Below, one piece after another: positions 16,962 to 41,471 of a DNA stretch of 43,734 nt. Every line of letters starts with the position of its first letter. The first letter of the stretch is position 1. This stretch comes from Planctomycetaceae bacterium (GTDB lineage: Bacteria; Planctomycetota; Planctomycetia; Pirellulales; Pirellulaceae): NCBI GenBank assembly GCA_002862205.1, contig PKCN01000147.1:1-43734 (forward strand), given 5' to 3'. The notes beneath the pieces were generated by a model, which worked only from the letters and a program-made list of their open reading frames with translations, was not told where the DNA came from and did no database searches. Made by a program: the position numbers and the translations under genes.

Positions 16962-17825
16962 TCAATTTTGGCGAATTTGATTCGCCAAATGGAGTTTCGA
17001 AGATTTGTGAGCACGCCCTGATTGAACCTGACGTGTCCCGAACTCGATTGGAGGTATGCCGTTACAGAAGGCATCAATTCGGTCATTGGCAACATTGGAG
17101 CACCACTCCGCCGGAATGGAACACTGTTGCTCGTCCGGCATGTGCCCGAAGTCGGTCGGCCCATAGTAGGAATTGCGATCAAATGCGTTTGCCACTTTCC
17201 AGTCGGGACCAGAAGCCACAAGCATTGGATATTTCGAATCTGGTATCGTCCTGCCAGGCAGAACTGCACGTTCAAATGAACCAACCCTTTTAGAGGAAAG
17301 CGGCGACGACACAAACGGCACAAATTGTTCGGACAGTGAATCAGCTGGTAGGTTCGCCCCACCACACTCTTTCTTGGGCATGCTATCCGTTTCCGCCGCC
17401 AATGCCCGGCCCCGCCGCTGCACTACTGGGGCAAGGATTGGGAGTGGTTTCAATGACTGCGAACTGTCCGCGCCCCTAAGAATACGACTCGCGTCTGAAT
17501 CGTCAACAAGATCTTCACAACACTCCACCGCTGTGTTGGCGATCGTGGATAAACGTGTTCGCGTGCGTTGCAAAAATGCTTGTAGGTCAGCACGACACTC
17601 TTGGATCGCAACGATTCCGTTTCTTACACTGGCCTCAGCCTGGTTGCCGGTGCCCGACACTGATTTGCCGGTGCCAGACACTGAATTGCCGGTGCCAGAC
17701 ACTGAATTGCCGGTGCCAGACACTGAATTGCCGGTACCCGACACTGATTTGCCGGTACCCGACACCGAACTACCGGTGAGAGAACCTTGCACCCCAGTAA
17801 CATTACCATCGTTATATGCTCGCAT
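16962..17825 (-). CDS. Unknown protein with N-terminal heptapeptide repeats
   Basis: Not recognised. The 287-residue frame begins MRAYNDGNVTGVQGSLTG and then carries the period-seven repeat SVSGTGN/K encoded by the 21-bp array. A moderately charged central part and no membrane segment follow. Its start overlaps the stop of the upstream ORF by 14 bases, and GGAGG lies nine bases before the ATG, which supports coupled translation. It lies in a unit led by a candidate c-di-GMP riboswitch. Against reality: the opposite strand is also open across the same stretch, and composition is unusual (several isolated Cys, no recognisable domain). It may be a fast-evolving adhesin-like or degenerate gene. 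Confidence 0.4.
   Translation of the reverse strand: MRAYNDGNVTGVQGSLTGSSVSGTGKSVSGTGNSVSGTGNSVSGTGNSVSGTGKSVSGTGNQAEASVRNGIVAIQECRADLQAFLQRTRTRLSTIANTAVECCEDLVDDSDASRILRGADSSQSLKPLPILAPVVQRRGRALAAETDSMPKKECGGANLPADSLSEQFVPFVSSPLSSKRVGSFERAVLPGRTIPDSKYPMLVASGPDWKVANAFDRNSYYGPTDFGHMPDEQQCSIPAEWCSNVANDRIDAFCNGIPPIEFGTRQVQSGRAHKSSKLHLANQIRQN
17647..17772. repeat. 21-bp tandem repeat, six copies
   Basis: Units such as CCGGTGCCAGACACTGAATT plus G repeat six times with one to four differences. On the minus strand they encode SVSGTGN/K. The unit length is a multiple of three, so copy number can change without a frameshift. Confidence 0.95.
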
Positions 17826-18511: not shown

Positions 18512-18563
18512 GATCCTTGTTTGCGATCCTTGTTTGCGATCCTTGTTTGCGATCCTTGTTTGC
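18512..18563. repeat. 13-bp tandem repeat, four perfect copies
   Basis: GATCCTTGTTTGC repeats four times, followed by a partial copy, 43 bases beyond the stop of the polytopic membrane protein gene. The period excludes a coding role. Confidence 0.95.
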
Positions 18564-18605
18564 GATCCTGCTGCCGTGCCTGATTCCAGCAGGTCAGTGG
18601 ACGAC

Positions 18606-19658
18606 TCATACGATCTTGGACCGGGATTCACGTTTCCAGATAAAACCATCGAGGACGTAATGGGTGACCTGCGGCACCGCCAACAATGGCACCAGCAGGA
18701 TCTCGTAATTCTCAAGACTCCATGCTGGCCCAAAAAACCAACTGCGTTCATGCCAGACACCCGAATCCCATAAGAATTCTTCCAAATAGGCCAGCATCCA
18801 CAGCACCCCGAGAAAGGAGGCGATTTTTGGAAGATGCCTTTTCGGCGTCTGCTGTTGCCCGGCACAGCGGTACCAATAGACCAACACCATGTAAGGGATG
18901 CCGTGAATGATCACATTGGTGACAGTGAATGCATAATCCGAGTTGAAAGTCACAATACCAACGTACCAGCAGATGGCTGTTGTGATCACGACGATATCTT
19001 TACCCGGGCTCCACTGCTTTCGAGCCACACCAAGATAAATCAAACGAACCACATAGACGCTCAGGCTCGCCCAATAAATGGGTGCGGCAATGGCCTCGAA
19101 CACAGCAGGCAATTGCTGAAAATCACCTTCAAGGAACCACCAGAAATTTCGTGGTAAATTCGAGTGCCAATGGATCAACGGATAGAGCGTTGCCATGTAG
19201 ATGGCAATGGTATCGATCCAAAATCCAAGACGCCCTGTTTCACCAGCACGCGACCGATAAAGTGCGACCCAACCATACTGCTGCCTCACAAAATGAAAAA
19301 CGGCAAGATACGCCAGCAATCTCCAGAACGTCGCTTGACCTTCTGAGTAAATTGCCATCCCAACAAGAAATGCAAATAACGGAGTCAGTCCATATAGCCA
19401 CGGCCTGCGTCGCAACTCAACTGGATCAAAGTAGACACGGAATCCTGTGGAGTAGACATGCGCCACATCGATCATCAGGATTGCACCGATCCACAACCAA
19501 TCAGGAGCATCAGTTTCCAGCAGGCCAAACGGTGCGCCAACGGCAAGCAACCCGAGTGCCAACACCGCACTTCCAAGAAAAGCCCACAGATCGACTGCTG
19601 GTGAAAAGAGCCACCTCTCGGTTGGCCGTTGTCGTGCAGGAAGAGATGAAATTGCCAC
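18606..19658 (-). CDS. Polytopic membrane protein, last gene of the polyamine/SPFH operon
   Basis: A 350-residue protein with about eight to ten hydrophobic segments spread over the whole length, starting at about residue 25. No family is recognised with certainty. Several His and aromatic residues sit at membrane edges: DVAHVYSTGFRVYFDP, FHFVRQQYGW, PLIHWHS, IIHGIPY and THYVLDGFIWK. These might bind a metal or an anionic lipid head group. The start is GTG at 19658, eight bases after the stop of the flavoprotein gene, with AAGGTAG upstream. That tight spacing makes it part of the operon. A transporter or a membrane-embedded enzyme are both possible. Confidence 0.82.
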   Translation of the reverse strand: MAISSLPARQRPTERWLFSPAVDLWAFLGSAVLALGLLAVGAPFGLLETDAPDWLWIGAILMIDVAHVYSTGFRVYFDPVELRRRPWLYGLTPLFAFLVGMAIYSEGQATFWRLLAYLAVFHFVRQQYGWVALYRSRAGETGRLGFWIDTIAIYMATLYPLIHWHSNLPRNFWWFLEGDFQQLPAVFEAIAAPIYWASLSVYVVRLIYLGVARKQWSPGKDIVVITTAICWYVGIVTFNSDYAFTVTNVIIHGIPYMVLVYWYRCAGQQQTPKRHLPKIASFLGVLWMLAYLEEFLWDSGVWHERSWFFGPAWSLENYEILLVPLLAVPQVTHYVLDGFIWKRESRSKIV

Positions 19659-19666
19659 TGCTACCT

Positions 19667-21334
19667 TCAGCCGTTACGAAGATCATTCAGGGGTTGGTCA
19701 ACAATCCCGCGCACAGACAAAATTTCCTCTGCCGCACGTACACCGTGAAAAAATGCTTCCTCAAGCAGTGCAACCCCACTCAAATCGGTACCGGCAAAAT
19801 GAATCGACCCCATCGGCTTAGCTGCCTGCTGTCGGGCGTCTCCCCACACAAATCCGGGCAACGGCTGAATCATCGCATGCCCCCAGCACATGACATCAAT
19901 CCGGGACACCAAATCATCAATCTCCGGGTGGGCGAGACGCAAGTCTGTTAGCACGACATCAGCCCAATCCGCCCACTTCAATTGCAACATCTGCTTGCGT
20001 GTGATCGTTGCTTCAACATCTGCAAATGGATAATACCAGGTCAACACCGTCGGGCCATGATCGATTCCCGATTGGTGTGTTGCTGTGACATATCCCAGAG
20101 ACCTGGATTCACGAATGACGTTATCCCATGCCATGGGGAAGCCAGCATCCACTGGACGATCTTTGAGATGGACATTCGCCACCAACCATGATCCATAGCG
20201 AAACGCCGAAGCATCGCGTCCCGAATCACTGAACCCGTCGATCACATACTTGGCCATCATTTGTGGCGCCGCGAACAGCACCTGTTCAGACTGGAAACCC
20301 ACTGGCTTTTGGGTGGCTGTGTCGACCGCCAGAACGGTTGTGGGATTCGTCTGATCGCCACCTGCAACCCCAAACACGCCCAACCCGGTTCGCACCTGCC
20401 CGCTGACAGCATCGTTCAGATAATCAACGATTCGCCCATTTCCCTCTGGCCACGTGATGACTTCCTGCGAGCCCTCGCTTCCTGGTGCGATTCGAGCCGC
20501 AAAATAGAACACGCCAGCCCAGGCACTCACACGATCTGGTGGCAAGCCATAATCATCGCGGCATGAGTAATCGACGAGCCAACGCAGGCGGGGTGAATCC
20601 CAGCCGCGTTCATTCAACCACGCTTCCATCGACATCTGGTCCAGTTTCCGAACCAACTCATCGTCAGAACCATGAGCCATTGGTATTGCAAACATTCTCC
20701 GTCCGCTGGGATCGCGCATGTCCGCCCAACGGTTCATCTCCGCCCTGAAGGCAGCTAACTGCCGCAGATCTTCTTCACTTGCTCCGTGCTGAGGGTACAA
20801 GCCCTCATACCAACGCCCCTGACTACAGATCCGTTCTTCAGGCTCACGGCAGAGATACTGCTCGGACACCACGGGACTGCCATCTTCGGACAAAGACTCG
20901 ATCACCCGCATTTCAGTCAACAGGTCAATCAATGCCTTATTTTCTGCCATTGGGACCGGAATGTAGTGTGCTCCCCAGGGAAACCTGAACCCATTACGTT
21001 TGCCGCCCCGCGCGGTTCCACCAGGGCTCGATTCCAATTCAGCAAGCACAAAATCGTCAAAACCGGCTCGTTTCAACCGCCATGCTGCGGCAAGGCCCGC
21101 AATTCCGCCGCCAACAATCGTGACGCCCACGCCCTCATAAGTCTGCGGTCTGAGACTTGCATCCACCCCATCACGCAACAGATGCCCAACATCAAACCTT
21201 GTGTGTGTAAGCTCACCCGCAGCCGAAGGACGGGACGTTCCACACCCAACACTGTTAGCAACCTGCCACCCCAGTAAGGCAGTCAGCAGTTGTCGACGAT
21301 TCAGCGTTTCACTCTCTGCCACGCCACTCCTCAT
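19667..21334 (-). CDS. Exported FAD-dependent amine-oxidase-like protein
   Basis: A flavoprotein of about 555 residues. Near the N-terminus [20 protein letters not shown] combines a twin arginine with a lipobox-like Cys, suggesting Tat export as a lipoprotein. The FAD-binding loop is [20 protein letters not shown], followed by the GG doublet SPGGTARGG typical of the monoamine/polyamine oxidase and phytoene desaturase group. The C-terminal FAD motif is [20 protein letters not shown]. Neighbours suggest an amine or aminopropylated substrate, which is inference. The ATG at 21334 overlaps the upstream synthase gene by 26 bases; GTG at 21322 with AGGAG just before it is an alternative start. Confidence 0.87.
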
Positions 21335-22898
21335 CGTAATACCGCACCAGCACTTGATTATTGAGCTGATTGATTTCCGTTTCGATGGGCTGAATATCGC
21401 GTGGCAACTCAAACAGATTCGCCATCATGGAAGCATTGAGAAAAGACAAATCCTGATCCAGCTTCCCCAATTCCTGAGGAACAACAATCTCGGGTTGCTG
21501 GGATGCCAACGCAAATCCCCAAACACCAAAAGTCGGAACCGAGGTGCAATAGGGACGAACATAAAACCCTGCCTCCTCCATCGTTCGCAGGATACACCAG
21601 TACGACTGCGCCGCCACCAGGGGAGAGGTGCATTGAATACTGAGCACAGCATCTGAAGTAATGATCTGCCGCAAGCGTCGATAGAAGAAAGTCGTGTACA
21701 ACTTTCCAACAGAGTAGGAACCGGGATCTGGAAAATCGATCACCACGGCGTCAAACGGCTCATGCTCCTGTCCTACCCAAACAAAAGCATCTGTATTGAC
21801 GACCGTGACTTTATCATCGGTCAACGCCTGCTGATTCAAATCACGCAGTAATGGAAATTGCGTTGCAAGTTCGGTCATTCCGGGATCGATATCCACCAAG
21901 GTTACCGTCTCAACGCTGTCATGCTTCAGAATTTCCCTGACGGCAAGCCCATCGCCACCGCCCAAGACAAGGACACGTTTTGGCTGCTGGGCCGCCAGCA
22001 GAACAGGATGCACCAATGCTTCATGATAGCGATACTCATCAACCGAATTGAACTGTAAATGCCCGTTGAGATAAAGCTGGAACCCACGACGATTGTTGGT
22101 GACCAGGATTCGCTGAAACCGGGTCTGCTTGGCATGCACAACAGCCTTGCCAAGAATGATCTCTTCGGTCCATGTCGTCAGCGTATCCGCTTTGATGATC
22201 CCCACCACCAGCAAGCCGACAACCAGGAATGCCCGTCCTCGCAATCCTGTCAAGCCGCGACTGGTGAGCAGTGGACGCAACAAATACGTGCCCCACAATC
22301 CGACCAGGGCATTCAACACTCCGAACACCAGCGATGTCCGCATCAACCCAAGATAGGGGACCAACAGAACCGGAAACAACAACGAGGCAAGCAGCGCGCC
22401 GATGTAGTCAAAGGTAAGCACTCGCGAAACAAGATCGCTGAAATCAAGGTGTTCCTTGAGAATCCGCATCAGCAGCGGCAACTCCAGACCGACCAACGTT
22501 CCAATCACAAACACCGTGCCGAACAGCACGAGCTGGAACCATTGCACGAACGCGAAGGAAACGAAGAGCAGCGGTGCAGACAGACCACCAACCAGAGCCA
22601 AGGCCAGCTCGACCTCAATGAATGTTTTCGCTAAACCTTTGTGCAAATACTGCGAAAACCAGGCTCCGACACCGAGCGCCGACAGATAGACACCGATGAC
22701 GAGCGAAAACTGCGTGACCGAATCTCCTAACAAATAGCTCGCCAGCGTCCCTGCAATCAACTCATAGATCAAGCCGCACGTGGCTACTGCCAGCACGTTC
22801 AAGTAGAGCAAAAAGAGAGGCGCACGGTTGAGCAATGCAAAAGCCAATCGCGAAGAACTAGCCAAGGATCGCCGAGGCAATGATGACAGAGATTCCAA
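21309..22898 (-). CDS. Membrane-fused spermidine synthase-like protein
   Basis: Up to 529 residues. About seven transmembrane helices fill residues 25-240 ([20 protein letters not shown]). A SpeE-type aminopropyltransferase domain then covers 250-480. Its motifs are [11 protein letters not shown], the SAM-binding loop [15 protein letters not shown], the acidic VDIDPGM and the catalytic-region [16 protein letters not shown], keeping both Asp of the usual DxxD. It would transfer aminopropyl from decarboxylated SAM, made by the decarboxylase in the same operon, to an amine at the membrane. The start is uncertain: TTG at 22898 overlaps the DUF350 gene by 41 bases, and TTG codons at 22865 and 22847 are alternatives. 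Confidence 0.88.
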
Positions 22899-23160
22899 CT
22901 ACGACTGCAGCAACGATGGTTGCCAACGCCTGATTGTGCTCTTCGATGACCTCCTTGACGATCGAAAACGGCGTGACCTTATCCATCAACAGAATCGCGA
23001 AGAACAGCACCACGATCCCGAGCACCGCAAAGACCGTTGCAGCCAGCAGGTGAGCCAGCAGCAGCGAAAGATTTCCGCCGCTGAGCGCAGAGCCTCCTGG
23101 ATCCGCACTCTGAGCCAACAACGACATTTCATCCACCATTCCAGAAATAATATTGAGCAT
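22858..23160 (-). CDS. DUF350 membrane protein
   Basis: A 100-residue protein beginning [12 protein letters not shown], with hydrophobic helices at about 35-58 and 78-98 separated by [20 protein letters not shown]. That loop, with the charged Lys/Glu pair and NxA, is the DUF350 signature (UPF0719, YjfL-like). The function is unknown; DUF350 genes often sit beside phage-shock or amidoligase-type genes. The start ATG at 23160 overlaps the stop of the small glycine-tailed gene (TAATG). GGAGG lies seven bases upstream, so the start is well supported. Confidence 0.87.
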
Positions 23161-23345
23161 TACTTGCCTCCTCCCCAAGAACCACCATATGAACGTCCAT
23201 AAGCGCCTCCACCCCCACGACTCATGCCGTCAAGGATCCCCAGATCAGGTGCTCGCCAACTGTACGCAGCGGCGATCCCGAACCAAAGGCAAACGCTCAG
23301 ACCAAAAACCAAATAACCAATGAACAACTTCGACTTTGAATTCAT
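23160..23345 (-). CDS. Small membrane protein with glycine-rich tail
   Basis: A 61-residue protein with one hydrophobic helix (LFIGYLVFGLSVCLWFGIAA) and a C-terminal tail of Gly, Ser, Tyr and Arg (GGGGAYGRSYGGSWGGGK). The ATG at 23345 lies six bases after the DUF4178 stop. The GGAG that overlaps that stop is its ribosome-binding site, so it is an in-operon gene rather than a chance frame. The tail resembles flexible low-complexity segments of SPFH- and Psp-associated small proteins. No family is recognised. Confidence 0.72.
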   Translation of the reverse strand: MNSKSKLFIGYLVFGLSVCLWFGIAAAYSWRAPDLGILDGMSRGGGGAYGRSYGGSWGGGK

Positions 23346-23351
23346 TAACGA

Positions 23352-24908
23352 TCACTCCGTTGCGTAGGGGCTGTAGTCACTGTCTTCCCAACGCTTTCGT
23401 TCAAACGAATGCAGGTATGCCAAAATCCCTAGCGGCAAAGCAGCGATCGCGACAAGCCCGTAAAAACAAAGCCACGGGTCAGCCCCCTGACTCACACCCA
23501 CACGGGCGAACGCAAGATAGAGAGCGAGTATCAATATCGATAACAACGGCCACGCAAAAAACATTCGCTTGTCAAATGAAGGTCCCGGTTGAATCGGACC
23601 AACACCGAAACTTCGTGGCAAATTCTTGACCCCGAAACCTTCTTCCACCGCCTCTGGCGGAACATAAACACACTCAGAAACATTCACCTCACTCGACTTT
23701 CCGGTTTCAGACCATTCATACGAGAGCATTCGCGGTGGTGCAATGTAGTCTGCCGTCTTGACCTTTTCGCCAGCCTCAACCTTCCAATAGAACTCGCCCA
23801 GAACATGCTTGACCGTGGCAACCCCACGATCATAGATCCGGAACTGCGAGCCATCGTACTCCACCTTGTCGGAGGCCCCACTATTCTTGAGCGCCGCTCC
23901 CGAGGCTGGTGACGCAAATGCCCAATGACGGTCGTTGTAAACCAACCATCGAAACCCATTTTTCTCGCTGTAAAGCAGGTACTCCTGCCATGGATAGCTG
24001 ACCCCCCCATACATGGCGAAGCGTCCCAGGAATCCAATCACGGTGTAATCGTCACCAAACAACTTGCCCTCAGTACCAAGCTTCAAACGCAACTTCAGCT
24101 TCTTGGGCTTTGAGAGGGTCTGCAGATAAGTCAACTTGCCGTTGTCTGCATCCAGCAAAGAATTACAACTTGGACAGGTGACACGCAGCGCCGCATCGGG
24201 AGCATGCAAAGTCAACGCACCTCCACACTTGGGACAGTTCAGGGAAACAGCGGATGTAACGATTTGAGCATCGACGACGTCCCACCCATCCCCTTCCAAC
24301 GCAAGACTGTCGAGGCTGATCTCTTTTCCAACATAAGCGTTGGTTGAAGCTCCATATTCAAACGTAGCAAATACACCATTGTCACCCTGCAGGTCGACAA
24401 ACTGATGATCTGCACCCCCGCGAAATGCCCAAGGAATGTCGCCTTCAGCTGCCAAAGCTGTTGCGACGCCACGCTCCGATACACTGAATTCTGAATCCCC
24501 CAATTTGACAACTTTGCCAAGATCCAGTTGATCGAAACCGGGAACGTTCACTTTACTGGTGAGTTTGCGCTGAAACATCAAGTAGGTCTTGCCCTGAGCC
24601 TCAGCAAGCCAACCCCAACGTCCACCAGGAAAGGCAAGGTACCATTCGTCCCAAACTCCCCCTGCAGGATGCTGATACTGAACGCGTCCAACTACGGTGA
24701 AATTCTTTTTATTGAATGTTCCCGAAAGACCGCAGCGAAGTCGCGATGGCGTCTGGACCAATTCCGCAACTTTTCCGATATCCTCGACCTTCCTGTCGGT
24801 ACGGGCGACCGCGGACTGGCAGAACTCGCACACCGATACCATCGAACCAACGGTGAACTCGATCGGTGCCCCACAAGATGGACAAGCGGTCTTTCGGCGT
24901 TTCATCAA
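23352..24908 (-). CDS. DUF4178 membrane protein with two zinc ribbons
   Basis: A 518-residue protein. It has an N-terminal zinc ribbon (CPSCGAPI and CEFCQ), a DUF4178 domain (about 55-200, WDEWYLAFPGGRWGWLAEAQ), a second zinc ribbon (CPKCGGAL and CPSCNSLL) and a second DUF4178 domain (about 265-400, WQEYLLYSEKNGFRWLVYND). Two transmembrane helices near the C-terminus (LLSILILALYLAF and FYGLVAIAALPLGILAYL) anchor it. The duplicated ribbon-DUF4178 unit is complete. The biochemical role of DUF4178 is not known; it commonly neighbours SAM decarboxylase, DUF350 and SPFH genes. Its ATG overlaps the decarboxylase stop by four bases. Confidence 0.88.
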   Translation of the reverse strand: MMKRRKTACPSCGAPIEFTVGSMVSVCEFCQSAVARTDRKVEDIGKVAELVQTPSRLRCGLSGTFNKKNFTVVGRVQYQHPAGGVWDEWYLAFPGGRWGWLAEAQGKTYLMFQRKLTSKVNVPGFDQLDLGKVVKLGDSEFSVSERGVATALAAEGDIPWAFRGGADHQFVDLQGDNGVFATFEYGASTNAYVGKEISLDSLALEGDGWDVVDAQIVTSAVSLNCPKCGGALTLHAPDAALRVTCPSCNSLLDADNGKLTYLQTLSKPKKLKLRLKLGTEGKLFGDDYTVIGFLGRFAMYGGVSYPWQEYLLYSEKNGFRWLVYNDRHWAFASPASGAALKNSGASDKVEYDGSQFRIYDRGVATVKHVLGEFYWKVEAGEKVKTADYIAPPRMLSYEWSETGKSSEVNVSECVYVPPEAVEEGFGVKNLPRSFGVGPIQPGPSFDKRMFFAWPLLSILILALYLAFARVGVSQGADPWLCFYGLVAIAALPLGILAYLHSFERKRWEDSDYSPYATE

Positions 24909-25414
24909 CCCTGCCCCCTGTCAGAGAAATCATGTCCACCCTGCTGACATGCAGACAATCCGCCCGACGCGCCCCGGGACAACTGTCTTACATCGACACT
25001 TTGCGCCCTCAAGGTCTCAGCAAGCCTCCCCGGCCAGTCCCAGGCAGCCCGCTCACGACAACAGTACAAATTGAAAGTTGCCAAGCCATATTCGGGATAA
25101 GTATGACACGCCAAGTGCGATTCACTCAACATGTACAACGCCGTAACTCCGCCCGGCCCATCGAAGCGATGACACTGCGGTTCACCAACCACTTCGACCC
25201 CAATGTCCGCAATGACTCGCTGACAAATGCGTTGAATCAAACCCAGGTCACGCAACAATTCCGCACTGCATCCAGACGCGTCTACCACCCATTCGGTTCC
25301 AGTGCCTACGACCCGTACCGCCGGTTCGGGTTCTGCCGATTCGGGGAGTGCCGGTTCGGATTCTGCCGCTGCGAGATGCGTTTGAGCAGTATTCATGAAT
25401 GAAACGGGGTCCAT
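24905..25414 (-). CDS. speD: S-adenosylmethionine decarboxylase (prokaryotic, pyruvoyl type)
   Basis: About 169 residues from ATG 25414 (ATG 25396 is equally possible). The self-cleavage and active-site block SESHLACHTYPEYGLATFNL then YCC has the Ser that becomes the pyruvoyl group, the His five residues later and the Cys twenty residues later, at the spacing of the class 1B enzyme. It would make decarboxylated SAM, the aminopropyl donor. An extra N-terminal segment of about 40 residues rich in Ala, Glu and Pro (EPALPESAEPEPAV), encoded by semi-repetitive GC-rich DNA, precedes the catalytic domain. It starts 51 bases after the SPFH stop and overlaps the DUF4178 start by four bases. Confidence 0.85.
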   Translation of the reverse strand: MDPVSFMNTAQTHLAAAESEPALPESAEPEPAVRVVGTGTEWVVDASGCSAELLRDLGLIQRICQRVIADIGVEVVGEPQCHRFDGPGGVTALYMLSESHLACHTYPEYGLATFNLYCCRERAAWDWPGRLAETLRAQSVDVRQLSRGASGGLSACQQGGHDFSDRGQG

Positions 25415-25464
25415 GACGATTGAAAACAACAGAATGACACCGGCGTTGCCCAGCGTAACACAGA

Positions 25465-26598
25465 TCAGGAAGCTGGTGGCGGCGGAGGCGGAGTGGCAGC
25501 TTGAAAATAGCCTGCCAACTGCGGCACCTGGGCAGCGGCGGTCCAACCACCGATTGCCGCGGTCCAAACCATCGTCCCCTCTCCGACATCGCCCGAGCCG
25601 ATCGCCGCCACAAGTTGCTCCATATTGAAGGGTCCCTGGGTCTGACCATTGACGGCTACATGCCACTGGGCAACCGGAGGTGGCGGAGGAGCGGCTCCTG
25701 CTGCCGGCATACCTGCTGCCGGAATACCAGGAGCACCCCCACCCTGACCCGGCATCATTCGACTGGCCATTGCAAACCCCATTCCGAGCCCCATTCCATC
25801 GGCGGCTCCGCCACCCGCAGGATTTTCAGCAGCTGCGGTCATTGCCTGACCCATTTGATACTGCTGATACGTATTCATGTTGCCAATCACTCCCATGCTG
25901 GTTCTCGTATCGAGAGCTTTTTCTACCGCTTCGGGCAGCGAGATATTGACGACATACAACTGGGGACAGTCCAACCCGTACTCATCATCAATTCTCTCAA
26001 CCACCTCGCTGCGCAGCGCCTCGGACAATTCTGTGTACTTGGAGGCGAGGTCAAGGGCTGGGACCTGCAGTTTTCCCAAGATATCTGCGAACGAAGAACC
26101 AATGATACTTCGCAAGAGTTCTGTTATATCGTCCGCTGAGAACTCTGCGTCAGTTCCAACGAGCTCTTTCAGTAGCGCTTTGGCATCGACTGCCTGAAGC
26201 GTGTAGCTCCCAAATGCCCGAATGCGGATCGGACCGAATTCCGGGTCGCGAAGCATGATTGGATTGGGTGTTCCCCACTTGAGATCTGTTACCTGCTTGG
26301 TACTGACAAAATAGACTTCTGCCTTAAAAGGGCTTTCAAAGCCATATTTCCAACCTTGCAACGTGGAAAGGATAGGCATGTTCTGGGTCGTCAATTCGTA
26401 ATGCCCTGGCTCATAGACATCAGCCAATTCACCGCCATTGACCAGCACTGCAATTTGCCCGGGTCGAACAATCAGCTGAGCGCCGTTTTTGATCTCGTTC
26501 TGATGGCGTGGAAAACGCCAAACCAGCGTGCGATTGGAATCATCGATCCACTCGATGATATCGATCAACTCACCACGTAGAACGTCGAACAGACCCAT
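25465..26598 (-). CDS. SPFH (virion-core type) protein with C-terminal GYF_2 domain
   Basis: The start is placed at ATG 26598 (MGLFDVLRGELIDIIEW) because GGAG precedes it by eight bases; an ATG at 26613 lies just upstream. Residues 15-240 form a stomatin/prohibitin-like domain of the COG4260 type (QLIVRPGQIAVLVNGG, GPIRIRAFGSYTL). A Gly/Met/Ala/Pro-rich linker (about 245-308) leads to a GYF_2 domain (WHVAVNGQTQGPF ... MVWTAAIGGW). The usual member ends with a zinc ribbon; here GYF_2, a proline-peptide-binding module, replaces it. SPFH proteins scaffold membrane microdomains. It is the first gene of the eight-gene minus-strand unit. Confidence 0.88.
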   Translation of the reverse strand: MGLFDVLRGELIDIIEWIDDSNRTLVWRFPRHQNEIKNGAQLIVRPGQIAVLVNGGELADVYEPGHYELTTQNMPILSTLQGWKYGFESPFKAEVYFVSTKQVTDLKWGTPNPIMLRDPEFGPIRIRAFGSYTLQAVDAKALLKELVGTDAEFSADDITELLRSIIGSSFADILGKLQVPALDLASKYTELSEALRSEVVERIDDEYGLDCPQLYVVNISLPEAVEKALDTRTSMGVIGNMNTYQQYQMGQAMTAAAENPAGGGAADGMGLGMGFAMASRMMPGQGGGAPGIPAAGMPAAGAAPPPPPVAQWHVAVNGQTQGPFNMEQLVAAIGSGDVGEGTMVWTAAIGGWTAAAQVPQLAGYFQAATPPPPPPAS

Positions 26599-39131: not shown

Positions 39132-39551
39132 GCGTATTTTCCAGTTTTTGATTCAATGTTTCGGTACTTCGTTCAATCACGTCGCAGCTCTCAGACCCTC
39201 AATAGCCGCCGACTTCAGCGATGCTGACAGTTTACGCATGAACGCTCGACCCGGATGTAAAGCGATTGTAACAGCAGAACACCCATGACTCGAATCGCAG
39301 CCAGAAAAACGAAGGACATCTCGTTCCATGACCATGGCCTTAAGCCTGAACCAGGGTAAAAACGGGGTTGAGTGACAGGCTGGCATTGCAATACCCGCTG
39401 GATGTGTCAGCACACTGACCGATAGACTGGAAGCGTTACGGAGCAGCCACACGCGTCGCAATCGGCACACAAGACCGCAGAAGACATCCGACAGGGTGGA
39501 ACCACACTTACCGGCAGATCACCAGGGTGCCGCATGGGAGCCGCAAGGGTA
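39132..39551. other. Intergenic region between divergent dioxygenase and speA genes
   Basis: No gene seen. The promoters of both flanking genes should be here. No known riboswitch motif was recognised. Confidence 0.4.
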
Positions 39552-41471
39552 ATGGATATTGCTACAAATCGATCATGGTCGCCCCAAGACAGCGCATCAC
39601 TTTACGAAATTGATCGTTGGAGCGATGGCTATTTCAACATTTCGGATGAGGGAACCATCACGGTCTCGCCCACACGCAAGACAGAGGATGGGATCGACCT
39701 GAAGCAACTGGTTGACCGCTTGAAACAGCGTGGTCTGGACCTGCCGATTCTGATTAGGTTCAACGGAATTCTGGGAGACCGTTTGAAAACATTAAGCCAA
39801 TGTTTCCAAAAAGCGATCGATGATCACCAGTACCAAAATGGATATCGCTGCATCTATCCAATCAAAGTCAACCAACAACGGGATGTGGTTCAACAGATCA
39901 TTCACCACGGGCAACAGTTTGGCTCCGGTGTCGAAGCGGGAAGCAAGCCGGAATTACTGGCGGTGGTTGCCATGACCGATGCTGACACCCCCATCATCTG
40001 CAATGGTTTCAAGGATGCGGAATTCATCCGCATGGCATTGCTTGCCCAGCGGCTTGGCCGCACCGTCATTCCCGTCGTTGAAAAGGTCAGCGAGCTCGAC
40101 TTGATTCTCAAAATTTCTGATGAACTGGGCGTACGCCCGACACTGGGCATGAGAGTAAAACTTGCCACCCGCGGCTCAGGCCGCTGGCAGGCCAGCGGTG
40201 GGTACCGGAGCAAATTCGGACTTACCGTCGCCGAGATGCTGACCCAACTGGACCGGTTGATTGATCACGGCATGGGCGACTGTTTCCAGTTGTTGCATTT
40301 CCATGTAGGCAGTCAGGTAGGAAATATACGTCAACTCAAGGCGGCGATCATGGAAGCCTCCCGAATCTACGTCGACCTGCATCGCCGCGGAGCAGGTCTG
40401 AAATATCTCGACGTCGGTGGCGGCCTTGGTGTTGACTACGATGGATCACAAAGCGACACCGATTCAAGCATGAATTACACGGTCCAGGAATACGCCAATG
40501 ATGTGGTATTTCACGCACAAACCGTCTGTGACGAAGCCTCCGTTCCACACCCACAACTGATGTCAGAAAGCGGTCGCGCCATTGCCGCGCATCACAGTGT
40601 GCTTGTCGTGGAAACACTTGGCGTGACTTCACAAGGCAATGTCCAAGCTGTACCCATGCAGGTTCCCGACCACTACGAGCAGCCTGTGCTCGACCTGTGG
40701 ATGACCTATCGCGATCTGAATAACGAAAACATCCGCGAGTCCTATCACGATGCACAACTCGCACTTGACATGTGCATGAGTTTATTCAGCGGAGGATACT
40801 TGCCCTTGGAACAGCGTGTCACGGCGGAGGACCTCTTTTTCTCGCTGTGTCATCGCATTCGCGATATGGCGAACGCGCAGGGCAAAGCCCACGAGGACTT
40901 CAAGGAGCTCGATCGCATGCTGTCTGACATCTACTTTGTCAATTTTTCGCTTTTCCAGTCCATCCCGGACTCATGGGCCATCAATCAACTATTCCCGGTG
41001 CTTCCCATCCACCGGCTCGACGAGCAACCAACCCGTCATGCGGTGCTGGGTGACATTACCTGTGATAGCGATGGAAAGGTCGATCGGTTCATCAATGGCG
41101 GAAAACAGAAACGAACACTCCTGCTTCACGACCTTCGTTCCAACGAACCCTACCAACTGGCCGTATTCATGGTCGGCGCTTATCAGGAAATCCTCGGTGA
41201 CTTGCATAATCTCTTTGGTGACACTCATGCGGTACATGTCGATGTCAACGATGGAAAAGCGAAGGTGCAGTCCATCGTGAAGGGGGACACCGTTCGAGAA
41301 GTTCTCAGCTACGTGCAATATGAAGGCCGTGAACTGGTGGACAAGTTGCAGGAAGCCGTTGAGGACGCAGTACAACACGGCCACATCAATAACGAACAGG
41401 CAGGAGATACCGTTTCGTTTTACGAGCAGGCTTTGGAACACTACACCTATCTGTCCAGCCGGAGCGATTGA
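39552..41471 (+). CDS. speA: Biosynthetic arginine decarboxylase
   Basis: A 639-residue PLP enzyme converting arginine to agmatine, the first step of the plant/bacterial putrescine route. The PLP-binding Lys is in YPIKVNQQRDVV (Lys about 105). Typical later blocks are GSGVEAGSKPELLAV, LLHFHVGSQVGNI, YLDVGGGLGVDYDGS and the C-terminal LSPFLS-like region with HRLDEQPTRHAVLGDITCDS. Length and motif order are full. ATG 39552 follows AAGGG; an upstream ATG at 39534 lacks similarity. Agmatine-to-putrescine genes are not in the window. The product could feed the aminopropyltransferase system at 18.6-26.6 kb. Confidence 0.94.
   Translation: MDIATNRSWSPQDSASLYEIDRWSDGYFNISDEGTITVSPTRKTEDGIDLKQLVDRLKQRGLDLPILIRFNGILGDRLKTLSQCFQKAIDDHQYQNGYRCIYPIKVNQQRDVVQQIIHHGQQFGSGVEAGSKPELLAVVAMTDADTPIICNGFKDAEFIRMALLAQRLGRTVIPVVEKVSELDLILKISDELGVRPTLGMRVKLATRGSGRWQASGGYRSKFGLTVAEMLTQLDRLIDHGMGDCFQLLHFHVGSQVGNIRQLKAAIMEASRIYVDLHRRGAGLKYLDVGGGLGVDYDGSQSDTDSSMNYTVQEYANDVVFHAQTVCDEASVPHPQLMSESGRAIAAHHSVLVVETLGVTSQGNVQAVPMQVPDHYEQPVLDLWMTYRDLNNENIRESYHDAQLALDMCMSLFSGGYLPLEQRVTAEDLFFSLCHRIRDMANAQGKAHEDFKELDRMLSDIYFVNFSLFQSIPDSWAINQLFPVLPIHRLDEQPTRHAVLGDITCDSDGKVDRFINGGKQKRTLLLHDLRSNEPYQLAVFMVGAYQEILGDLHNLFGDTHAVHVDVNDGKAKVQSIVKGDTVREVLSYVQYEGRELVDKLQEAVEDAVQHGHINNEQAGDTVSFYEQALEHYTYLSSRSD

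Follow-up and report, generated by a model that had tools for sequence, protein, structure and literature searches.

What does a membrane-bound aminopropyltransferase modify when it is encoded beside a predicted maker of its aminopropyl donor? The question is raised by an operon in a 43,734-nucleotide stretch of DNA from a Planctomycetaceae bacterium (contig PKCN01000147.1 of assembly GCA_002862205.1; hereafter the window). Eight tightly packed open reading frames (ORFs), all on the minus strand and running from 26598 to 18606 in the ORF list and its translations, encode in this order an SPFH protein with a GYF_2 domain, an S-adenosylmethionine (AdoMet) decarboxylase (SpeD), a DUF4178 protein, a membrane protein of 61 amino acids (aa), a DUF350 protein, a spermidine-synthase-like enzyme fused to a membrane domain (mSpeE), a flavin-dependent amine-oxidase-like protein (FAO) and a polytopic protein (Poly). 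That this gene set and order are real is held with high confidence: coordinates, translations and Pfam and NCBIfam scans bear out what an earlier reading of the DNA letters (the original prediction) had described. The operon type is partly described and its parts are ordinary; what is new here is the C-terminal lysine of the 61-aa protein. This single-pass membrane protein (23160..23345, minus strand), identified by its translation and by its position between the DUF4178 and DUF350 genes, has a Gly-rich tail ending SWGGGK, which reads AYGRSYGGSWGGGK and is followed directly by the stop codon. The lysine, our proposed acceptor residue, is an AAG codon that can be read directly from the DNA at 23163..23165 (minus strand). 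The original prediction had the protein and its Gly tail in the right place and treated it as one among others, when its C-terminal lysine proves to be among the most constant features of the locus. This constancy suggests that the lysine is what mSpeE modifies, and we give its aminopropylation about an even chance.

The membrane domain of mSpeE was scanned against a collection of 84,980 species, and the best 80 of at least 589 matching stretches were taken as loci (numbered with L), with source phyla, by record title, comprising Planctomycetota, Acidobacteriota, Myxococcota, Gemmatimonadota, Bacteroidota, Leptospiraceae, Armatimonadota and Pseudomonadota. In all, 118 loci were examined, and 90 of these hold both DUF4178 and DUF350 in order; the other 28 were excluded because they lack mSpeE, or lack DUF4178 or DUF350 in the piece, and by inspection K-ending proteins are present in the excluded loci L025, L067, L093, L107, L113 and L128. 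In 90/90 the last two residues are GK or HK, either in the small protein or in a tail that is fused to DUF4178. A simple rule (a same-strand ORF in the interval, with a membrane-like segment and ending in K) finds 81 of them, 56 with GK and 25 with HK, and the remaining nine were read by inspection, the lysine standing on the DUF4178 tail in L042 and L056 and on proteins missed by the filter in L046, L061, L085, L086, L087, L089 and L119. A near-invariant C-terminal lysine is therefore observed with high confidence.

A stricter rule, which accepts only the ORF nearest DUF350, gives a K end in 84/101 loci against a background of 9/143 for opposite-strand ORFs in the DUF4178/DUF350 intervals (binomial probability 3e-83). 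Twelve of its 17 misses have another K-ending candidate in the same interval, and for the other five (L067, L093, L119, L158 and L173) a K-ending protein is known from inspection. Outside the reach of the stricter rule lie 23 of the 124 mSpeE loci, 14 of which show a K-ending protein in the locus by inspection. Taken over all 124, a K-ending partner is found for 119, four of them on another contig (L072, L073, L082 and L166), and five are unreadable for the partner, L027, L045, L051 and L094 being cut by contig ends and L058 being a partial SpeE match. Lysine is rare at the ends of most other operon products: SPFH 0/26, SpeD 1/85, DUF350 0/110, mSpeE 2/124, FAO 1/79 and, with fused tails included, DUF4178 7/135. 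Among the tails ending GK, HK, RVK or RIK the lysine codon is AAA in 62 and AAG in 38, and each of the three stop codons is represented, which places the constraint on the amino acid. We accordingly rejected the possibility that the lysine is a by-product of overlapping start codons, given the use of both codons and three stops and the presence of lysine at the ends of DUF4178 fusions.

Three carriers of the K tail can be distinguished: a transmembrane (TM) peptide of about 55 aa; larger proteins (232-254 aa), several of which start like a lipoprotein; and a DUF4178 fusion, in which the DUF4178 protein itself bears the -GK or -HK tail (L042, L056, L162, L164 and L165). The small proteins tested from other loci have no Pfam or NCBIfam match above cut-off and are not recognisable as one family, and the 61-aa protein of the window likewise has no match above cut-off in either collection. 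The DUF4247 family (PF14042) matched only Corynebacterium glutamicum among 14 controls. Position -2 of the tail is G or H and position -3 varies, and the K-ending protein persists where FAO, SpeD or DUF4178 is not found nearby.

Further sets of loci gave a similar picture. Among 200 Pseudomonadota genomes, 14 have mSpeE at E<=1e-60; 13 of these loci were excised with flanks, together with six of 13 plasmid records, one of which (L156) proves to be from Gemmatimonadota. In 18 of these 19 loci either a membrane or exported protein or a DUF4178 tail ends in K, the assignments in L158 and L161 being made by inspection only, and the tails end in -SHK, -THK, -AHK, -HGK, -RVK, -RIK, -SGK or -GGK. In the nineteenth, L166, the region is missing from the contig, and a DUF350 gene elsewhere in the genome (L179) adjoins a protein ending GGGPGVGK. 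A comparable arrangement is seen in three Myxococcota-type records (L072, L073 and L082) where mSpeE stands alone: in 3/3, another contig holds DUF4178, a 53-aa protein ending GFMGGK, and DUF350. One of the plasmid loci, from Alteromonas mediterranea (L161, 7866-14524), is a variant containing mSpeE, SpeD, a hypothetical protein, a 'toxic anion resistance protein', DUF4178, an SSGK-ending protein and a 289-aa DUF350 protein.

A later survey found mSpeE in 29/395 Bacteroidota and 106/195 Myxococcota genomes, with Myxococcota loci taken for 30 of the 106 matches. Its 44 loci with DUF350 show a K end in 42 of the 43 that are readable (L256 is cut by a contig end), a count that is partly not independent in that some genomes are close relatives of, or the same as, those of the discovery set. 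The first pass gave 35 K-ending proteins (19 GK, 16 HK), compared with 1/65 opposite-strand ORFs, and wider flanks revealed, in seven divergent Bacteroidota loci whose mSpeE is 32-37% identical, proteins of 232-249 aa ending -FGK or -GGK, several with a lipoprotein-type start. No DUF350 was called within 1.5 kilobases (kb) in ten Myxococcota and four Bacteroidota loci of this survey, two of which (L234 and L243) nevertheless have a -GK protein and two others of which (L246 and L260) sit in the genomes of L073 and L072. The Myxococcota mSpeE loci L245, L247, L253, L255, L263, L264, L270 and L271 are of this kind, with one in-frame TGA in L247, and suggest that the operon is often split in this phylum.

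We next consider the enzymes. SpeD (24905..25414, minus strand), a predicted maker of decarboxylated AdoMet (dcAdoMet) of the class 1b type, scores 89.1 bits against Pfam AdoMet_dc (PF02675; cut-off 25) and 72.3 bits against the NCBIfam equivalog TIGR03330, just under the cut-off of 75.65. It aligns to the AdoMet decarboxylase (AdoMetDC) of Thermotoga maritima with the serine of the ESH motif, the His and the Cys all kept; in the passages of PMC10407285 that describe the T. maritima enzyme these are the pyruvoyl serine S63, the catalytic H68 and the catalytic C83. Neofunctionalised members of the family (SpeDC, SpeDA) use ornithine or arginine; AdoMet is the presumed substrate of SpeD here, whose operon neighbour is an aminopropyltransferase. 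It is the one AdoMetDC found in the genome of the window, where we found no second strong aminopropyltransferase, only one weak family match (25.9 bits), and the dcAdoMet of this genome is thus left without another evident use. mSpeE (21309..22898, minus strand) has a seven-TM domain (7TM; about 22182-22811, minus strand) fused to an aminopropyltransferase domain (about 21312-22148, minus strand); its start codon is uncertain and the TTG at 22898 was used. Residues 28-526 match NF002956 (PRK03612) with 632.7 bits (cut-off 472), and the AlphaFold2 (AF2) model has a predicted local distance difference test (pLDDT) score of 93.1. The synthase part shares its fold with Thermus thermophilus SpeE (3anx/1uir), with aligned catalytic Asp, Tyr and Gln positions (against 3anx, Foldseek E 4.4e-17; sequence 5.9e-35), and differs from it in the N-terminal 7TM domain and in having DxPDP in place of D-x-T-D-P. 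The positions that we take to be catalytic, Y291, H292, D316, D338, D388, D391 and Q422, align to solved SpeE and are invariant in 46 sequences. Transfer of an aminopropyl group from dcAdoMet to an amine is the predicted activity of mSpeE.

We propose that SpeD would make dcAdoMet in the cytosol and that mSpeE would move the aminopropyl group of this donor onto the small, exported protein with the Gly tail, where the epsilon-amine of the last residue, the lysine, would receive it. The product would be N6-(3-aminopropyl)lysine, which closely mimics a spermidine joined by an amide bond to the C-terminus of a protein. By structural reasoning, this residue and an N8-linked spermidine amide differ by one methylene and a carboxylate. 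With its polyamine tail the protein would help to maintain the envelope, working at the outer leaflet together with DUF350, DUF4178 and a scaffold, which is SPFH here and PspA/CesT in other loci. In loci that have them, FAO and perhaps Poly might then oxidise the tail, take it off or process it further. The identity of the acceptor, the product, the topology of the synthase domain and the physiological role are what we infer here. The original prediction was of an aminopropylated amine, peptide or lipid; a product other than a free polyamine is indeed plausible, and the constancy of the C-terminal lysine allows the choice to be narrowed to a protein C-terminus. As a whole, this model of a membrane protein-modification system is in our judgement evenly poised between right and wrong.

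A parallel exists in Escherichia coli K-12. A peptide-spermidine ligase is reportedly claimed in the title of a 2023 paper by Pederick, and in both the yjfIJKLMC and the ygiBC loci a DUF1190 protein stands beside YjfC or YgiC, whose RefSeq name is peptide--spermidine ligase. The yjf locus also encodes DUF350 (YjfL), the PspA-family protein YjfJ and the DUF2170 protein YjfI. YjfM ends GHWGG and YgiB ends RSMGG, and the tail of YjfM, RGGYGRSSSARGHWGG, resembles that of the window protein, RGGGGAYGRSYGGSWGGGK. The E. coli loci and the window therefore have in common an exported protein with a Gly/Ser/aromatic tail and polyamine chemistry, together with DUF350 in the case of yjf; they differ in that the E. 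coli type has an ATP-grasp-type ligase and a partner ending in -GG, whereas the window has SpeD and mSpeE, a tail ending GGGK, and no Pfam match to an ATP-grasp ligase among its eight genes. A ligase needs a free carboxylate, which -GG offers, and an aminopropyltransferase needs an amine, which -GK offers. Among 200 Pseudomonadota genomes, of which 22 have a match, 15 of 21 DUF1190 proteins end in GG, six in other Gly/Ser combinations and none in K; linkage to the ligase is known only for E. coli. The count does not include L199, which was unreadable, or L209, L211 and L212, which are weak matches from a single genome. A more distant likeness is hypusination of eIF5A, which also places a polyamine-derived group on the epsilon-amine of a lysine, and which is unlike our proposal in that the lysine is internal, the group is an aminobutyl from spermidine and the enzyme is unrelated.

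The closest described relatives are the operons reported by Ravi 2024 (PMC11237479), where the passages on a 'second major group' list PspA/CesT, mSpeE, DUF350, DUF4178 and a lipoprotein and give no substrate, and where variants with AdoMetDC, a polyamine oxidase and a band-7 protein are mentioned. The core set, in the passages cited, is thus already in print, contrary to the suggestion in the original prediction that the complete set might not have been described as one system. Shared between this group and the window are mSpeE (7TM plus synthase), DUF350, DUF4178 and a small exported protein; the window has SPFH-GYF_2 instead of PspA/CesT, with no Pfam match to PspA or CesT/Tir among its eight genes, a 61-aa TM peptide instead of a lipoprotein, and in addition SpeD, FAO and Poly. 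Locus L277 is of the Ravi type, with CesT_Tir_1, PspA, DUF4178, a lipoprotein-like protein ending SRSGGFGK, DUF350 and mSpeE, and the lysine feature therefore spans both types. The word 'lysine' is absent from the main text of Ravi 2024 (PMC11237479), and we found no report of the terminal lysine, or of aminopropylation of a C-terminal lysine, in our searches of open-licence PMC papers.

Several observations, in addition to the assignments by inspection above, weigh against our reading. On the side of the lysine, the tails of L159 and L170 end in -RVK and -RIK, so that the residue before K is not always G or H. No K-ending neighbour is found for the more distant, weaker DUF350 hits in the split-operon genomes (L186 and L187) or for the DUF350 of G017 (L178), and L235/L274, with no K-ending protein beside DUF350, is a true exception. 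In L232/L282 and L233/L283, which have mSpeE and no DUF350 call, there is no coding-strand K-ending candidate in the stretch searched, up to 5.5 kb from mSpeE. Poly ends in K in 11/52, above background. On the side of the enzyme, seven hydrophobic segments precede the synthase domain, and mean Lys plus Arg per loop is 2.52, 3.57 and 3.63 for loops 2-3, 4-5 and 6-7 and 0.04, 0.17 and 1.37 for loops 1-2, 3-4 and 5-6, which by the positive-inside rule would put the N-terminus inside and the synthase domain outside, a topology deduced solely from the charges of the loops and the number of helices, with the N-terminal region hardly covered in the alignment. AF2 runs TM5 and TM6 as one long helix. 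The predicted place of the synthase domain is the outer side of the inner membrane. The lysine tail would also be outside, to judge from its signal or TM anchors, and tail, synthase domain and oxidase may share the periplasmic face. An outside synthase domain would need export of dcAdoMet, for which there is no proven exporter, and this is the weakest step of the model; if the domain were cytosolic instead, modification would precede export. We also know of no biochemical datum in which a relative of SpeE transfers an aminopropyl group to a protein. The more specific proposal, that an extracytoplasmic, membrane-embedded aminopropyltransferase builds a polyamine tail on an encoded C-terminal lysine, as the counterpart of spermidine ligation (probably onto -GG) in E. 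coli, and that here lies the substrate so far missing for the 'polyamine-independent' AdoMet decarboxylase, is one that we place slightly short of an even chance.

The lysine could also be a recognition tag instead of a modified residue. The C-terminal [G/H]K would then mimic a polyamine and dock non-covalently to mSpeE, DUF350 or a partner, sensing or gating and never being modified, with the acceptor of mSpeE elsewhere. Invariance of a terminal residue fits binding as well as it fits catalysis, position -2 may be either G or H with -3 varying, and modification of the lysine is a prediction only. This alternative nevertheless leaves unexplained both the constant pairing with an aminopropyltransferase and the frequent -GG at the same place in the sister type, where the ligase, by the chemistry of its name, acts on a carboxylate at the C-terminus. 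We regard it as unlikely, if the likeliest of the alternatives to aminopropylation of the lysine.

A 2019 study by Li is said, from its title and a sentence citing it, to place AdoMetDC and membrane-aminopropyltransferase fusion proteins outside spermidine and spermine synthesis. Such a role is nonetheless what a further alternative supposes, namely an ordinary or variant free-polyamine pathway at the membrane, making spermidine, aminopropylcadaverine or similar, with FAO as a periplasmic polyamine oxidase and the rest as envelope-stress parts. Catalytic residues are kept in both SpeD and mSpeE, FAO resembles amine oxidases, and the window contains, 13 kb from the operon, a 645-aa ORF (39534-41471, plus strand) which looks like a biosynthetic arginine decarboxylase (SpeA) and which could supply putrescine precursors in the same genome. 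The pathway gives no account of the terminal lysine, and bacterial homologues of a fungal membrane-aminopropyltransferase fusion, presumably the mSpeE family, are stated in the relevant passage of PMC12803844, which cites the 2019 study by Li, to have been shown to take no part in making spermidine or spermine; we consider the pathway decidedly improbable. Less probable again, in our view, is that the aminopropyl group goes to a lipid of the membrane or to a soluble peptide. mSpeE is embedded in the membrane and SPFH proteins organise membranes, which would suit a lipid; no lipid-modifying family scores above cut-off among the eight genes, however, and an acceptor of either kind gives no reason for a conserved terminal lysine.

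The flavoprotein FAO (19667..21334, minus strand) scores 46 bits against PF01593, above the cut-off of 19.8, and has an FAD-binding GxGxxG motif. It starts with the ATG at 21334, with twin-arginine codons at 21293-21298 and a lipobox. A twin-arginine motif is present in 67/77 orthologues, and the protein thus looks exported, as first supposed. No solved relative was found at E<=1e-4, and its family resemblance indicates that it may oxidise amines. In principle the terminal lysine might be its substrate in a lysyl-oxidase-like reaction, the aldehyde cross-linking the protein to lipid or protein and mSpeE having another role, a reading that the export motif and the presence of FAO within 8 kb of mSpeE in 60/81 loci would fit. 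The K-ending protein is, however, found in loci with no FAO nearby (e.g. L047, L048, L050, L052-L054, L159, L160 and L168-L174, the search covering the locus itself), and FAO was rejected as the reason for the lysine because the residue persists without it nearby; we think this the least probable of the alternatives to aminopropylation by mSpeE.

Poly (18606..19658, minus strand) is a 350-aa polytopic protein known from a 50-sequence alignment and an AF2 model (pLDDT 92.6). Its membrane residues D64, H67, H122, Q126, H252, E293, E294, H333 and D337 are invariant or near-invariant, D64, H67, H122, H252, H333 and D337 being among the invariant ones. The fold has no PDB or viral match at E<=0.001; the window protein has no family match at E<=0.1 in Pfam and NCBIfam scans, and the 50 members give only scattered weak Pfam matches to 13 families (best E 0.01), so that identification with a known enzyme was rejected. 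The conserved membrane His and Asp suggest a putative metal site, and Poly is possibly an unrecognised membrane metalloenzyme. In the same phylum, 246 genomes include 18 with Poly and 24 with an mSpeE that has both TM and synthase parts (the 24 being drawn from a list of 30 that includes partial matches), and 17 have both proteins (Fisher p 8.6e-20, uncorrected for relatedness). The genomes of L032-L038, of planctomycete family f21, also hold both, with a divergent Poly homologue (31-35% identity) that does not adjoin mSpeE in the fetched pieces.

Conservation of the gene set was assessed in 81 mSpeE loci with enough flank, counting partners within 8 kb of mSpeE and leaving out the window's own piece; many of these loci are close relatives and the counts are not independent events. 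DUF350 is near mSpeE in 77, DUF4178 in 71, SpeD in 68, FAO in 60, Poly in 39 and SPFH in 16. All of SpeD, DUF4178, DUF350, FAO and Poly are near mSpeE in 36/81 (34 without SPFH and two with it), a count which leaves out two loci without a DUF350 call. The association is not one of chance, and the complete eight-gene form including SPFH is uncommon (2/81). The order SpeD, DUF4178, small protein, DUF350, mSpeE, FAO, Poly is repeated in L022, L023, L029 and L030. The expectation that the genes are conserved as a set thus holds well beyond Planctomycetota, in eight phyla by record title. One such title may be wrong: L092 (BNCN01000002.1) bears the name Comamonas sp. KCTC 72670, and its genome, G247, came from the search of the phylum of Pyxidicoccus G249.

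The SPFH/Band-7 protein (25465..26598, minus strand; PF13421, Band_7_1, 332 bits; C-terminal GYF_2, PF14237, 57.5 bits) was expected to be the membrane scaffold of the system. It is present in the window; being found in only 16/81 loci it was rejected as a core component and is better seen as an optional, exchangeable scaffold, with PspA/CesT in its place in L277, the one divergent locus examined for scaffold type. L108 and L119 have zinc-ribbon-like CxxC motifs at the end of the SPFH protein, and not a GYF_2-like part.

Of the remaining genes, the DUF4178 protein (23352..24905, minus strand; PF13785, 131.8 bits) has zinc-ribbon-like CxxC motifs, two DUF4178 stretches and C-terminal membrane segments, and DUF350 (22858..23160, minus strand; PF03994, 39.7 bits) is a small YjfL-like membrane protein. 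The junctions are largely as first described. That between the small protein and DUF350 reads TAATG exactly, the SPFH stop and the SpeD ATG are 51 bases apart (50 by the coordinates 25415-25464), and the gap before the last gene, Poly, is eight bases; the overlap of SpeD and DUF4178 reads TTGATGA, with the stop TGA at 24907-24905 and the ATG at 24905-24903, so that the earlier placing of ATGA at 24905-24908 was slightly off. A scan for consensus promoters was at background (7 found, compared with 5.2 +/- 2.5 in shuffles). Tandem arrays lie just downstream of the last gene, at 17644-17778 and 18512-18569 (21 bp x 6.4; 13 bp x 4.5).

In many phyla, then, the gene for an AdoMet decarboxylase lies next to that for a spermidine-synthase-like enzyme fused to a membrane domain, and enzymes of this kind reportedly make neither spermidine nor spermine. 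A C-terminal lysine that hardly varies, on carriers of three structurally unrelated sorts, offers this orphan aminopropyltransferase a concrete candidate acceptor. If the proposal is true, the lysine would be the site of a new post-translational modification and would link polyamine chemistry covalently to PspA/SPFH envelope maintenance. It would also explain why the type with a peptide-spermidine ligase has comparable tails that end in -GG, and two unrelated chemistries would then converge on polyamine-tailed envelope proteins.

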